DNA of 64,000 nt from Wenyingzhuangia gilva (lineage in GTDB: Bacteria > Bacteroidota > Bacteroidia > Flavobacteriales > Flavobacteriaceae). The stretch spans positions 62,001-126,000 of the forward strand of contig NZ_JAUMIT010000002.1 in NCBI RefSeq assembly GCF_030519655.1. The letters run 5' to 3'. Positions 56,444-61,495 of this stretch are shown piece by piece. The translations under genes were made by a program, and so were the position numbers. Below the pieces are notes generated by a model. The model made no database searches, was not told the DNA's origin, and saw nothing but the letters and a program-made list of their open reading frames with translations. The first letter of the stretch is position 1. Every line of letters begins with the position of its first letter.

Positions 56444-57664
56444 ATGCAATCACTCTTAATTATTGGCTATGTTTGGCCAGAACCTACAGCAACTGCTGCG
56501 GGTAGCAGAATGTTACAAATTATAGAACAATTTCAATTGGCAGAATATGTGGTGACTTTTGCTAGTCCTGCACAAAAACCAACTACTGCTTTTAATTTAA
56601 ATTGTATTGATGTTGTTGAAGAGACTATTTTGTTAAATGATGTTTCTTTTGATGAATTTTTAAAAGACTTAAATCCTACTGTTGTTTTGTTTGATCGTTT
56701 TATGATTGAAGAACAATTTGGTTGGAGGGTGGCTAAAATTTGTCCTGATGCTTTAAGATTGTTAGATTCGGAAGATTTACATTTTTTAAGAAAAGCAAGA
56801 CAAGAAGCTGTTAAAAAAGGGTTGGATTTACCAAAAGGAATGATTCTGTCTGAAGATGCCAAAAGAGAAATTGCTAGCATTTATAGATGTGATGCAACGC
56901 TGACTATTTCGGAGTTTGAAATGATTTATTTAAAAGAGGTCTATCAAATTCCAGAAACTATTTTGTGGTATTTGCCTTTTTTAGTCGAGGTTGAGAATCA
57001 TCTAACTCCTTCTTTTAACAAAAGACAAGATTTTTTATTCATAGGTAATTTTATTCACGCACCCAATTGGGATGCTGTTTTGCAATTAAAACAAGTTGTT
57101 TGGCCAAAAATAAAAAAGAAACTTCCTAAAGCACACCTCCATATTTACGGAGGTTATCCATCAGATAAAGTATTTCAACTACACAATGCTAAAGATGGTT
57201 TTTTAGTACACGGTAGGGCAGAAGAAGTTGCTAAAGTAATGAAGGAAACTAGGGTTTGTTTAGCTCCTATGAGATTTGGAGCAGGTTTAAAAGGAAAATT
57301 GATAGATGCCATGCAAAATAATACGCCTTTTATTACTACAGAAATTGGGTCTGAAGGAATGTTTGGAGATTTTGATTTAAAAAACTGTATTGCCAATACT
57401 GAAGAGGATTTTATAAACAAAGCAATTCAACTATACACAGATGAAAACCTTTGGAATGTTGAAAGTAATAAGGGAAAACAGATTTTAAAAACTAGGTTTG
57501 AGAAATCAATATTTCAGAAAGCATTTACGGAAAAACTTCAAGACTTGATTTTAAATTTGAATACATACAGAGCTCAGAATTTTATCGGAAGTATGTTACA
57601 GCATCATACGTTAAAAAGTTCCATGTATTTATCTAAGTGGATTGCAGAGAAAAATAAGTCTTAA
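56444..57664 (+). CDS. Glycosyltransferase (GT4-like)
   Basis: 406 residues. A Rossmann-like start (LLIIGYVWPEPTATAAGSRM) and a C-terminal half with FLFIGNFIHAPNWDAVLQLK, HLHIYGGYPSD, CLAPMRFGAGLKGKLIDAMQ and GSEGMFGD fit GT-B enzymes of the GT4 type. The acidic residue expected in the EX7E motif is not plain. It likely moves a sugar in a surface glycan or similar pathway. A TATTTTTG box (56432-56439) lies only 4 nt before the start. Its stop overlaps that of the converging LpxR gene. Confidence 0.82.
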   Translation: MQSLLIIGYVWPEPTATAAGSRMLQIIEQFQLAEYVVTFASPAQKPTTAFNLNCIDVVEETILLNDVSFDEFLKDLNPTVVLFDRFMIEEQFGWRVAKICPDALRLLDSEDLHFLRKARQEAVKKGLDLPKGMILSEDAKREIASIYRCDATLTISEFEMIYLKEVYQIPETILWYLPFLVEVENHLTPSFNKRQDFLFIGNFIHAPNWDAVLQLKQVVWPKIKKKLPKAHLHIYGGYPSDKVFQLHNAKDGFLVHGRAEEVAKVMKETRVCLAPMRFGAGLKGKLIDAMQNNTPFITTEIGSEGMFGDFDLKNCIANTEEDFINKAIQLYTDENLWNVESNKGKQILKTRFEKSIFQKAFTEKLQDLILNLNTYRAQNFIGSMLQHHTLKSSMYLSKWIAEKNKS

Positions 57665-58611
57665 AATTTATAGCTAAACTGAAGGCTTCCGTATCGGGTG
57701 ATTTTAGTTCTCATTTCTTTTACATTTCTGGTGCAGTAAATTATGTGATAGCTAAAATTTATATGTTTTGAGTTCCAATAAAATCCAAAATCATTTTGCC
57801 AAGTCCACGGTTCTAAATGAAATTCTTTTTGTGTTGGGTTTTTATCTAATTCTCCTGTAACGGTATCGTCTTTAATTTGATAGGTCGCAAAAGATTTTAT
57901 TCCAAAATAACTTTCCTTGATCCATTTTTCATCACCATATTGCAAGGCAGTACCAAAAAATGTGCTATTAGATATTGGAGCTAATACAGTTTTTAAAAAA
58001 TTAAATCGGATAGCGATTCCACTAGAAATATTGGTAAAAACGGTGTTTAGTTTTGCCTTGTTTGTCCAAGAGATTGAAATGGGAAGGCTTTCTTTGTAGA
58101 GTATATTTCGAGTATAATTGGCCAAGACACCTACAGCATATTTTTCTTTTACTTGTGTTTTCCATCCCTCAGAAGGATCAATATTATAAAAGGTATGAAT
58201 AAAGTTTTGAGCCCATTCTGCTCCAGACTTGGTGTTGGTGACTCCGAGTGTAAGTCCTAAACTTAAAATATTTTTAGAGTTGATTAAGTGTTCTGAATAA
58301 TTAGCATATAAATATCCTGCATATGGTCTTTCTTGAAACGCTACTTTGGTTACATCACTGTCTTGAGGGTTGTATATATTTTGTCCAAGGGTAAACTGTC
58401 TAATTTTTTTATCAAAGAAATTATAACCAGTATTAGTGGCTTGTTTATAAAAAAGCTCTAGACCATTGGTGTAATATTTATCTAAATAAAAAGAAACATA
58501 TAAATCATTGTCGTTAATCAATCCTATTTCATGTTTGGTTTGTGCGTGAGTGTTTATTTTACACATGTAAAGGCTAACAAACAGTAAAAAGAATATTTTA
58601 TTGAAATTCAT
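57661..58611 (-). CDS. LpxR-like lipid A deacylase
   Basis: 316 residues with a signal peptide (FFLLFVSLYMCKINTHAQ). The start of the mature part, HEIGLINDNDLYVSFYLDKYYTNG, and FQERPYAGYLYANYS are typical of the LpxR/DUF2219 family, outer-membrane beta-barrels that remove the 3'-acyloxyacyl group from lipid A. The C-terminus ends in a beta strand (YGSLQFSYKF). The two genes 57661-57664 share TTAA as overlapping stop codons in opposite directions. Confidence 0.85.
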   Translation of the reverse strand: MNFNKIFFLLFVSLYMCKINTHAQTKHEIGLINDNDLYVSFYLDKYYTNGLELFYKQATNTGYNFFDKKIRQFTLGQNIYNPQDSDVTKVAFQERPYAGYLYANYSEHLINSKNILSLGLTLGVTNTKSGAEWAQNFIHTFYNIDPSEGWKTQVKEKYAVGVLANYTRNILYKESLPISISWTNKAKLNTVFTNISSGIAIRFNFLKTVLAPISNSTFFGTALQYGDEKWIKESYFGIKSFATYQIKDDTVTGELDKNPTQKEFHLEPWTWQNDFGFYWNSKHINFSYHIIYCTRNVKEMRTKITRYGSLQFSYKF

Positions 58612-58725
58612 TAAAATCTTGTCAAAAGTTGTCTAAAAGTACAATTATTCGCCTTGTTAAACTATGTTAAAAGCAGTGGAATATGTATATTTACTCGTCA
58701 TAAAGATAAAAAATCCCCAAAAGAT

Positions 58726-59583
58726 ATGAATGAAAAAGAAATGCTAACTGCTGAAGATTTGGCTTCAGTGAGCACGAGGGCGGAGTTGGTACGCAAATTA
58801 GACGAAAAAGGAGAAGATGTTTCGGATATTCTCAATAAAATAAAATACGAAGAAGAGCTTAAGTTATTACAAATAGAGCTGGTTAAATTACAACAGTGGA
58901 TTAAGAAAAATAACAAACGAGTAGCCATTATTTTTGAAGGAAGAGATGCTGCAGGAAAAGGAGGAGCGATTCGTAGATTTATGGAACATTTAAATCCACG
59001 TTCTTCTCGTTTGGTGGCTTTAAACAAACCTACAGATATAGAAAAAGGACAATGGTATTTTATGAGATACATTAAGGAACTACCCAATCCTGGAGAAATT
59101 GTTTTTTTTGATCGTAGTTGGTATAACAGAGCGGTAGTAGAGCCTGTGATGGGATTTTGTACGGATGATCAATACAATACTTTTATGGCACAAGTTCCAG
59201 AATTTGAGCATATGTTGTATGAAGACGGATTGGTAATTATAAAATTTTGGTTGTCTATCTCAAAAAGTGAACAATTGGCTCGTTTTAATTCTAGACAAGA
59301 AAACCCTTTAAAGAGATGGAAATTTAGCCCTGTAGATAAAAAAGGACAAGAGTTGTGGAGCAGGTATACTACTTATAAAGAGCATATGTTTAGTAAAACA
59401 CATACCACTTATAGTCCTTGGGTAATTGTTAAAACAAACGACAAACAAGAAGCAAGACTTGAAAGTATTAGATATGTTTTATCTAAGTTTGATTATGAAG
59501 GGAAGGAACATGCTGTGGCAAATTTATTTCCAGACCCTAACGTTGTGATGCATTATTTTAGATCATCATACCAAATAGATTAA
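58726..59583 (+). CDS. Polyphosphate kinase 2 (PPK2), first of a tandem pair
   Basis: 285 residues from ATG 58726; a TTG at 58654 would add 24 residues without family support. Walker A IIFEGRDAAGKGGAIRRFME, then NPRSSRLVALNKPT, FFDRSWYNRAVVEPV with the Walker B-like Asp-Arg, and a lid region with NPLKRWKFSPVD. PPK2 transfers phosphate between polyphosphate and nucleotides. The N-terminal extension has a short acidic helix. Followed by a second ppk2 after 4 nt. Confidence 0.95.
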   Translation: MNEKEMLTAEDLASVSTRAELVRKLDEKGEDVSDILNKIKYEEELKLLQIELVKLQQWIKKNNKRVAIIFEGRDAAGKGGAIRRFMEHLNPRSSRLVALNKPTDIEKGQWYFMRYIKELPNPGEIVFFDRSWYNRAVVEPVMGFCTDDQYNTFMAQVPEFEHMLYEDGLVIIKFWLSISKSEQLARFNSRQENPLKRWKFSPVDKKGQELWSRYTTYKEHMFSKTHTTYSPWVIVKTNDKQEARLESIRYVLSKFDYEGKEHAVANLFPDPNVVMHYFRSSYQID

Positions 59584-59587
59584 TAGT

Positions 59588-60373
59588 ATGGAGAATAATA
59601 TAACACCAAATGATATTAAAAACTTAAATACCAAAAAAGGAATTCAGGCTTTGTTAACAGACAAAGAAGTGAATCTTCAAAAAGCGGTAAGAAGTATTAA
59701 TTATATAAAATCATTAAAAAAACTTCAAAAGGAGTTGATTAAAATGCACGAGGAGATCATTGAAAAAAACCAACGTGTAATTGTTGTTTTTGAAGGAAGA
59801 GATGCTGCCGGAAAAGGGGGAGCCATCCGTAGAATGACCGAGCGTATCAATCCACGTCATTTTAGAATTGTGGCGTTGCCAAAACCTACAGATGAAGAAC
59901 GTTCACAATGGTATTTTCAGCGTTATATCAACAAGTTTCCCAAAGCAGGAGAAATTGTTTTTTTTGACCGTAGTTGGTATAACCGTGCTGTGGTAGAACC
60001 TGTAAATGGATTTTGTACCCAAGAAGAATACGTTCGTTTTATGAACAATGTAAACGATTTTGAACGTATGATTACTTCTTCAGGGATTAAGTTGGTAAAA
60101 ATATACATGTCTATTACCAAAGACGAACAAGCCAAACGATTTGATGAGATTAGAGACAACCCATTAAAACAGTGGAAAATCACTCCTGTAGATGAAAAAG
60201 CTCAGGAACTTTGGGATGAATATACCAAGTATAAAAATGTAATGTTTACCAACACCAATACAGATTATGCTCCGTGGAAAATAATCAAAGCCAATAGAAA
60301 AACGTTTGCAAGGGTAAATGCCATCAAGTATTTATTGTCAAAAATACCTTACGATAAAAACAGAGAAGTATAA
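59588..60373 (+). CDS. Polyphosphate kinase 2 (PPK2), second of a tandem pair
   Basis: 261 residues. VVFEGRDAAGKGGAIRRMTE, NPRHFRIVALPKPT and FFDRSWYNRAVVEPVNGF are present; NPLKQWKITPVD is the lid. It is clearly a paralogue of the upstream gene but differs along its length, so this is an old duplication. The two may prefer different nucleotides (AMP, ADP or GDP), which cannot be told from sequence. 6 nt before the next gene. Confidence 0.95.
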   Translation: MENNITPNDIKNLNTKKGIQALLTDKEVNLQKAVRSINYIKSLKKLQKELIKMHEEIIEKNQRVIVVFEGRDAAGKGGAIRRMTERINPRHFRIVALPKPTDEERSQWYFQRYINKFPKAGEIVFFDRSWYNRAVVEPVNGFCTQEEYVRFMNNVNDFERMITSSGIKLVKIYMSITKDEQAKRFDEIRDNPLKQWKITPVDEKAQELWDEYTKYKNVMFTNTNTDYAPWKIIKANRKTFARVNAIKYLLSKIPYDKNREV

Positions 60374-60379
60374 AAAACT

Positions 60380-61456
60380 ATGGATAATCCAGAGTACGAA
60401 AAAATATCTAAGAAAAAGCCCACGTATCCAATACAGTCCTTTTTTAGTCAATATTTATCAAAATATGATAGGAATGCATTAATTCCTGTTTTTTATGATG
60501 ATTTGCTTCGTTTTTCTGGAGCCATAGAAGTGTATAACGAAAATGGAGAAGATACTCTTTGGGTACGAGTTTACTATCCAGAACACGAAAGAACTACTAT
60601 TGATAGAGATTTAAAAAAAGTATACTCTATTTTACATGGTGATGGTTCTGACACCTCAGTTCCTTTTTTAAATATTGATGCGGTTGATTATTGTACGTTT
60701 GGAAATTCCAAGCCTTTTAGAATTAAGGTAAGGAATATTTTAAATGATAATTACACTTATATGTATGTAAAAAAAGCAGATGCTTCCAGGGTGTACGGAT
60801 TGGAACTAGAGCATTTGTTATCGCCAAACCGAATTAATTTTTTGGTGTACAAAGAAACGTTGATTGAAGATCATATTTCAGGAATACCAGGAGATACTTT
60901 TATTGAAGCAGGCTTGGATGCTTATTCTATCAGAACTCAAAAACAAATTGCCAAGGAATATGTAAAGTTTAATGAACGTTGTATTGTGCGTTTGTTAGGA
61001 GATATGAGGGCTTATAATTATGTAATTGTCCCTACACATGATTTTGACCAAGTACGTTATAGAATTAGAGCGATTGATTTTGATCAGCAATGTTATGAAG
61101 GGAGATTGAGGGTGTATATGCCACAGTTTCTAAAAGAGAACAATCAGTATGTAGAAATGGTTCATAATAATTTAAGACCAGAATCTATTGAGCAGTATCA
61201 ACAAGAAGAAAGATCCACCATTGCCAAAAGAATTTTATTAGGAAAAAAGAGAATTCAAGAGTTGATCAATTGTATGTTACAAGATAGAATTTCTTCTGAC
61301 GATAAAATTGATCAGCTAAAGAACGACTTATTTATTTATACAAAAGATGTTGCTTTTAAAAAGTGTAAATGTATGGGCGAAATTTTAGAAACTGCCTTTA
61401 GATATGTTATTAGACACTATCAAGATGTAAATGGCCTAAAGAATATAAAGGATTAG
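60380..61456 (+). CDS. Conserved hypothetical protein with kinase-like motifs, in the PPK2 operon
   Basis: 358 residues, no signal peptide or membrane segment. I do not recognise a named family. Residues 203-236 include RLLGDMRAYNYVIVP and RIRAIDFDQQ: a Gly-Asp-x4-Asn loop (Asp208, Asn213) and an Ile-Asp-Phe-Asp motif (Asp233, Asp235). These correspond in order to the catalytic loop and metal-binding Asp of protein-kinase-fold enzymes such as aminoglycoside phosphotransferases. YMYVKKADASRVYGLELEHL (127-146) could supply the beta3 Lys and helix C Glu. It follows two ppk2 genes by 6 nt and is ended by a strong terminator, so the three form one operon. Kinase activity is inference. Confidence 0.7.
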   Translation: MDNPEYEKISKKKPTYPIQSFFSQYLSKYDRNALIPVFYDDLLRFSGAIEVYNENGEDTLWVRVYYPEHERTTIDRDLKKVYSILHGDGSDTSVPFLNIDAVDYCTFGNSKPFRIKVRNILNDNYTYMYVKKADASRVYGLELEHLLSPNRINFLVYKETLIEDHISGIPGDTFIEAGLDAYSIRTQKQIAKEYVKFNERCIVRLLGDMRAYNYVIVPTHDFDQVRYRIRAIDFDQQCYEGRLRVYMPQFLKENNQYVEMVHNNLRPESIEQYQQEERSTIAKRILLGKKRIQELINCMLQDRISSDDKIDQLKNDLFIYTKDVAFKKCKCMGEILETAFRYVIRHYQDVNGLKNIKD

Positions 61457-61460
61457 AAAT

Positions 61461-61495
61461 AAAAAACTCCATGAACTGTTCATGGAGTTTTTTTT
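61461..61495. terminator. Bidirectional terminator after the PPK2 operon
   Basis: AAAAAACTCCATGAA pairs with TTCATGGAGTTTTTT around CTG, with T residues following; the A run serves the converging rsmB gene. Confidence 0.93.

Follow-up and report, generated by a model that had tools for sequence, protein, structure and literature searches.

The gene at 60380..61456 of the window, the whole stretch of 64,000 nucleotides from Wenyingzhuangia gilva that was analyzed, appears to encode a phosphotransferase of the protein-kinase-like fold that is cytoplasmic and catalytically competent and belongs to a Bacteroidota-wide family with nearly always one copy per genome. We give this reading a probability of roughly 0.77, and the activity, mechanism and cytoplasmic location are what we infer. 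A kinase-like fold of the 358-aa protein is very likely, and the structural evidence for it, which comes from predicted models, is good. Catalysis is likely, judging from the residues that are conserved. The family is best read as a new, usually single-copy, Bacteroidota-wide member of the kinase superfamily, unnamed in the libraries searched, and it is notable for its breadth and conservation rather than for its position behind two polyphosphate kinase (PPK2) genes. The features referred to below are as follows.

60380..61456, + strand: gene of the kinase-fold protein, ATG start, 358 aa (ORF list, AlphaFold2 models, fold searches, conservation)
60380-60664, + strand: N-terminal extension of about 95 residues, 1-95 (AlphaFold2 models)
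Residues about 97-165 and about 184-350 of the 358-aa protein: predicted N-lobe and C-lobe (AlphaFold2)
60692..60721, + strand: loop C-x2-[GA]-N-[ST]-x-P-x-R, codons 105-114 (conservation and model)
60770..60772, + strand: K131 codon, candidate ATP-binding Lys at the end of the third N-lobe strand (conservation, strand 124-132)
60809..60811, + strand: E144 codon, candidate partner of the Lys, in helix 135-147 (conservation and model)
60998..61018, + strand: putative catalytic-loop motif GDMRAYN with D208 and N213, codons 207-213 (conservation)
61073..61090, + strand: putative metal-loop motif IDFDQQ with D233, codons 232-237 (conservation)
59588..60373, + strand: PPK2 gene, second of the pair, 6 nt upstream of the kinase-fold gene, a clade-specific neighbor (PF03976, TIGR03707)
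58654..59583, + strand: PPK2 gene, first of the tandem pair (PF03976, TIGR03707)
61461..61493, + strand: terminator-like hairpin of 15 pairs that can be read on either strand (counted as 2 sites, one for each strand)

Motifs and conservation

A first-pass annotation of this DNA had picked out, in the open reading frame 60380-61456, a Gly-Asp-x4-Asn loop followed by Ile-Asp-Phe-Asp, and both elements lie where it had placed them. The motif GDMRAYN includes G207, D208 and N213, and IDFD (I232, D233, F234 and D235) follows 20 residues past N213. Taken alone, this motif is only suggestive. Among 1136 background ORFs of at least 150 aa, 2 contain the strict pattern GD-x4-N-x15-25-ID[FLVIYW] and 22 a loose one; when the protein was shuffled 20000 times, the two patterns came up 31 and 615 times, respectively. 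The motif is considered more than a chance occurrence because it is conserved across homologues.

For the analysis of conservation, 202 loci yielded 191 distinct sequences, which were aligned; 60 of them come from relatives at class or phylum level, with 40-51% identity. D208, N213 and D233, the three residues singled out for this check, are identical in all 191 sequences. The same is true of K131, and E144 is kept in 190 (one sequence has D), which bears out the suggestion of a plausible Lys/Glu pair. The Lys, Glu, catalytic Asp, Asn and metal Asp of kinases are thereby present in kinase order (K131, E144, D208, N213, D233). In total 34 positions are invariant across the 191 rows, among them M209, F234, D235 and Q236 beside the catalytic motifs, E163, H165 and G168, and C105, N109, P112 and R114 in the loop at 105-114, where position 110 is S in 147 sequences and T in 44. 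G207 and Q237 are each found in 190 of 191, the latter being S in the one exception. Position 210 is R in 157 sequences, including the window protein, and H in 34; all 34 histidines fall among the 60 divergent rows. There is no classical glycine-rich loop in the 358-aa protein.

The N-terminal extension (1-95) is conserved too, with K13, L26, R31, W61 and Y82 invariant in the 191 rows, and past residue 10 it is mostly of good confidence in the second AlphaFold2 model described below. This extension may form a separate domain. By eye, no signal peptide or membrane helix was seen in the 358-aa protein.

Predicted fold

Structure prediction followed by fold searches, as the annotation had proposed, gave a kinase-like fold with AlphaFold2, Foldseek and VIA-align. 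The first AlphaFold2 model was built on an alignment of 56 Flavobacteriaceae sequences (55 of the 80 named loci were used) and is of moderate confidence, with a mean pLDDT of 71.0, a pTM of 0.73, and pLDDT below 50 at 167-176 (the hinge) and 205-253 (the catalytic region). Its N-lobe consists of strands 97-105, 113-119 and 124-132, the last carrying K131, helix 135-147 with E144, and strands 154-157 and 160-165. Its C-lobe has helix 184-206, the catalytic loop, strands 213-221 and 224-232, D233, and then helices. This order of elements is the kinase topology, and the modeled loop 105-114, between strands 97-105 and 113-119, sits in the place of the phosphate-binding loop. A second model, built on 81 sequences with the divergent class- and phylum-level homologues left out, agrees with the first in the N-lobe; its residues 205-247 are without secondary structure, and the C-lobe was not improved.

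When the first model was compared to the PDB with Foldseek, the best 50 of 1772 matches were all kinase-fold proteins, the pseudokinase Pan3 included. None reached E 0.001 (the best was 1.7e-3), and the matches listed have low TM-scores of 0.16-0.38 by query length and rmsd values of 9.7-21 A. Against viral models two matches reached E 0.001, and among the best 50 listed most of the named ones are kinases. VIA-align of Foldseek's best chains gave, for the first model, 50 listed matches that are all PI3K/PI4K/PIKK proteins. With the first model the best Z was 11.7 (275 aligned residues at 5.0 A) and 216 chains scored Z of at least 8; with the second, poorer model the best Z was 8.1 (258 aligned at 4.9 A) and 3 chains scored at least 8, a Z near 8 being one that, by the tool's own note, can reflect a common arrangement. 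PI3K/PI4K/PIKK folds rank first with both AlphaFold2 models, and we hold a PI3K/PI4K-type fold with moderate confidence on these models. RIO, CotH and ABC1 kinases are not among the best 50 matches listed by either Foldseek or VIA-align, which excludes none of them.

If the models are correct, ATP-Mg would bind between the two lobes, with the loop 105-114 and the K131-E144 pair holding the ATP phosphates. N213 and D233 would bind the metal, and D208 would position an acceptor hydroxyl, to which the gamma-phosphate would then be transferred.

Family distribution and gene context

No Pfam or NCBIfam model (E up to 1), no PADLOC model and no PDB sequence (E up to 10 for both) matches the window protein, and PDB searches with profiles built from 56 and 25 sequences came back empty; the smaller profile combines 4 of the 80 named loci with 20 divergent loci. 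A single PHROGs match of unknown function (E 0.04, residues 271-317) was taken as chance. When 25 members were scanned against Pfam (E up to 10), 11 scattered, mutually unrelated families were matched, the best at E 0.00095 (CFAP300, in 2 of 25 members). These were rejected as real kinship and taken as chance, the families being unrelated; they presumably lie outside the kinase clan, and no kinase-clan Pfam family was found among the 25 members. Such a missing match to a member HMM of CL0016 is also what is expected of a new member family; CL0016 is the Pfam clan of the protein-kinase-like fold superfamily (PMC9758233). No description of the family was found in the literature with broad search terms, which weakly suggests that it is undescribed so far.

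All 7 genomes of the genus have a homologue, as do 156 of the 199 family genomes (each from another genus) and 99 of 395 genomes in a phylum sample, the last comprising 37 matches from the same family, 2 from the same order, 32 from the same class and 28 from the same phylum. The closest named relatives are from Wenyingzhuangia species (W. marina, 93%). Two matches were found in one genome of the family set (G067) and one of the phylum sample (G292), and one in every other matched genome. The match in one class-level genome (G443) is a fragment of 41 residues that contains a stop; this genome and the two order-level genomes were left out of the divergent set, which is made up of 60 loci in 59 genomes of class- and phylum-level relatives. 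The gene is dispensable in the Flavobacteriaceae, because it is absent from 43 of 199 genomes, about a fifth. A mobile origin was considered and rejected: 16 stretches of viral contigs matched a pattern and none was confirmed, and no homologue was matched in plasmids or phages. With 34 invariant positions in 191 sequences and a presence in 156 of 199 Flavobacteriaceae genera, the family is a real annotation gap that neither Pfam nor NCBIfam covers with a model. Should the kinase reading hold, the family would be a kinase conserved widely in the Bacteroidota.

Both ORFs upstream of the kinase-fold gene are PPK2 genes by PF03976 (E 4.6e-94 for 58654..59583 and 1.7e-91 for 59588..60373), and they score 358 and 332.4 bits, respectively, against the TIGR03707 cut-off of 301.8. 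The window protein itself has no match to PF03976. The annotation was correct in placing the three genes in one unit, with gaps of 4 nt between the PPK2 genes (59583/59588) and 6 nt before the kinase-fold gene (60373/60380). The listed TTG start of the first PPK2 gene is mechanical, and an in-frame ATG at 58726 appears likelier by eye. The hairpin at 61461-61493, directly 3' of the kinase-fold gene, would perhaps close the three-gene unit; the 2 sites counted are not above chance (shuffle mean 1.2, sd 1.0). The divergent upstream gene at 57661-58611 on the - strand resembles an outer-membrane lipid A deacylase of the LpxR type by eye.

It had been proposed that the kinase draws on nucleotides made from polyphosphate or controls the PPK2 enzymes, and the neighborhood survey speaks against such a pairing. 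PPK2 adjoins the kinase-fold gene in 14 of 116 loci (L001-L008 and L037-L042), all in Wenyingzhuangia or Ochrovirga. These loci come from eight genomes, most represented twice, and two of them (L006 and L040) start inside the second PPK2 gene; in the tree their 8 distinct rows group together as one clade (support 1.0). No PPK2 is beside the gene in the other 102 loci, within flanks of 1.5-5 kb, nor in any of 46 loci of another set or of the 60 divergent loci, these two sets having 20 loci in common; over all the sets the flanks examined ran from 1.5 to 6 kb. Across 199 family genomes the gene is missing in 43, PPK2 in 29 and both in 6, where 6.3 would be expected if the absences were independent (Fisher p = 1). 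PPK2 occurs without the gene in 37 genomes and the gene without PPK2 in 23. Genomes lacking either were read from gaps in the matched rows (23 and 9 so inferred), in agreement with the tallies.

The Flavobacteriaceae often have tandem PPK2 pairs that are not beside the kinase-fold gene, for example at G052:C11, in a genome that lacks the kinase-fold gene, and at G203:C37, in a genome that carries it on another contig. At G061:C13 the two PPK2 matches share a single open frame of 546 aa and look like a fusion.

The PPK2 adjacency is local to two related genera and says little on the function of the kinase-fold gene. A single ancestral rearrangement within the Wenyingzhuangia/Ochrovirga line is the best explanation for it, with co-expression there at most. 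A functional polyphosphate link of the kinase-fold protein is unlikely, and the outcome for polyphosphate biology is negative, in that a PPK2 partner should not be inferred from the adjacency.

No neighbor is kept throughout the loci surveyed. Among the 80 named loci, both neighbors are on the other strand in 62, the downstream one only in 14 and the upstream one only in 4, and because the gene is mostly free-standing, deletion followed by phosphoproteomics should be straightforward. A pRiA4b ORF-3-like gene, identified on one member, is near the kinase-fold gene in 55 of the 80. An NA37 nucleoid-associated gene, one member of which was identified by Pfam, is found downstream in opposite orientation in 35 of the 80 (L037-L116).

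In 17 of the 60 divergent loci (L151-L155, L157, L158, L219-L221, L223, L224, L229, L231 and L234-L236) the bacillithiol synthesis gene bshA precedes the homologue on its own strand, at a distance of 12-138 bp. The identification was made on 150 residues of the L151 copy, which score 261.3 bits with TIGR03999 (E 1.3e-77) compared to a whole-protein cut-off of 273.7. The 17 loci look like one lineage because they have further neighbors in common, and bshA is found in none of the 80 named Flavobacteriaceae loci; a bacillithiol partner was rejected on these two grounds. bshC is present in 194 of 199 family genomes, and being nearly universal it leaves the co-occurrence test with little power. The kinase-fold gene is not needed for bacillithiol synthesis, because among the 43 genomes that lack it, 41 carry bshC.

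Alternative readings and known kinases

A kinase tied to bacillithiol synthesis is a very remote prospect. The bshA gene directly upstream in the 17 divergent loci would favor it, but the apparent single lineage, the Flavobacteriaceae loci and the presence of bshC where the gene is absent all weigh against it. That the protein regulates the adjacent PPK2 enzymes, or uses nucleotides made by them, is improbable. The tight spacing of the unit, its possible closure by a hairpin and its persistence over two genera would fit such a role; on the other side stand the loci where PPK2 is not adjacent, the independent absences of the two genes, and the many tandem PPK2 pairs that do without an adjoining kinase-fold gene. 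A pseudokinase, that is, an ATP-binding or scaffold protein without phosphotransfer, is unlikely. Pseudokinases usually lose at least one of the Lys, Glu, catalytic Asp, Asn and metal Asp, and four of these are kept in all 191 homologues and the Glu in 190, which argues against this reading despite the missing glycine-rich loop and the many invariant residues outside the presumed active site that could mark a binding surface.

A lipid kinase of the PI3K/PI4K type, with an inositol lipid or some other lipid head group as its substrate, would be in keeping with the structural ranking obtained from both models. It would also agree with an Asp-Asn distance of 5, as between D1250 and N1255 of PI3KC2alpha (PMC8930771), and with the histidine that 34 of the 60 divergent rows have at the position of the DRH histidine. 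Against it, that position is R in the window protein and in most rows, and there is no evident counterpart of D1146 of PI3KC2alpha. The inositol phosphate synthase family PF01658 was found in 1 of 199 family genomes (an incomplete genome), as compared to 156 with the kinase-fold gene, in a search whose control was detected in 6 of 14 genomes. Because of this near absence, an inositol-lipid substrate is unlikely in the Flavobacteriaceae; the argument bears on inositol lipids only. At E 0.001, PF00454 matched nothing in 198 genomes of the phylum, among them that of the window, with the control detected in just 1 of 14 genomes and below the cut-off. Taken together, the lipid kinase is a rather unlikely reading. 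Inositol lipids are unlikely substrates, and the substrate is probably neither a phosphoinositide nor PPK2.

The preferred reading remains a catalytically competent phosphotransferase of the protein-kinase-like fold. As a tentative extension, the family could be a bacterial kinase lineage of the PI3K/PI4K type, conserved through the phylum at ~40% identity or more and nearly always single-copy, that phosphorylates an undescribed lipid, metabolite or protein. If so, it would represent an unrecognized phosphorylation pathway of the Bacteroidota.

PPK2 proteins (PF03976) are P-loop enzymes of another fold, linked to the kinase-fold gene in one clade only. APH kinases share the order GD-x4-N ... 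ID[F/L], and it was on this motif order that the protein had been called an APH/HipA-like kinase. Neither outcome named as refuting the kinase reading came about, the predicted fold being kinase-like and D208, N213 and D233 invariant, but the APH/HipA label is not supported at sequence level: no kinase-clan Pfam family is matched, the PI3K/PI4K type ranks first, and neither profile comparison is convincing. For APH (PF01636; 19 of 25 loci used) the best profile alignment falls outside the catalytic loop at an hhalign E of 0.16. For HipA (PF07804; 15 of 17 loci used) it sets the catalytic-loop Asp and Asn in register, at an E of 0.12 that in this one comparison is not significant. The window genome has one APH match and one HipA_C match (L194), both on contig C23 and neither to the kinase-fold gene on C12, and the 25 members scanned include no match to either HMM.

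The best structural matches, with both models and spanning residues 19-352, are of the PI3K/PI4K type (Vps34, PI4KIIIbeta, PI3Kgamma; PF00454), to which the protein is alike in the distance of 5 in the catalytic loop and in the DF at the metal Asp, as in DFG. Identity in the structural alignments is 6-12%, and none of the 25 members scanned against Pfam matched PF00454. PMC8930771 gives PI3KC2alpha the catalytic residues D1250-R1251-H1252 and N1255, the metal motif D1268-F-G, a P-loop serine S1114 and the Mg ligand D1146, and states that H1252 could serve as catalytic base. Compared to these residues, the window protein has DMR, and the family DM[RH] in 191 of 191, in place of DRH. M stands at the place of R1251 and R at that of H1252, and D208 to D233 span 25 residues as compared to 18 from D1250 to D1268. 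By reading, D1146 has no evident equivalent. The window protein therefore fails defining features of the PI3K/PI4K family, and it may yet work like one of its members.
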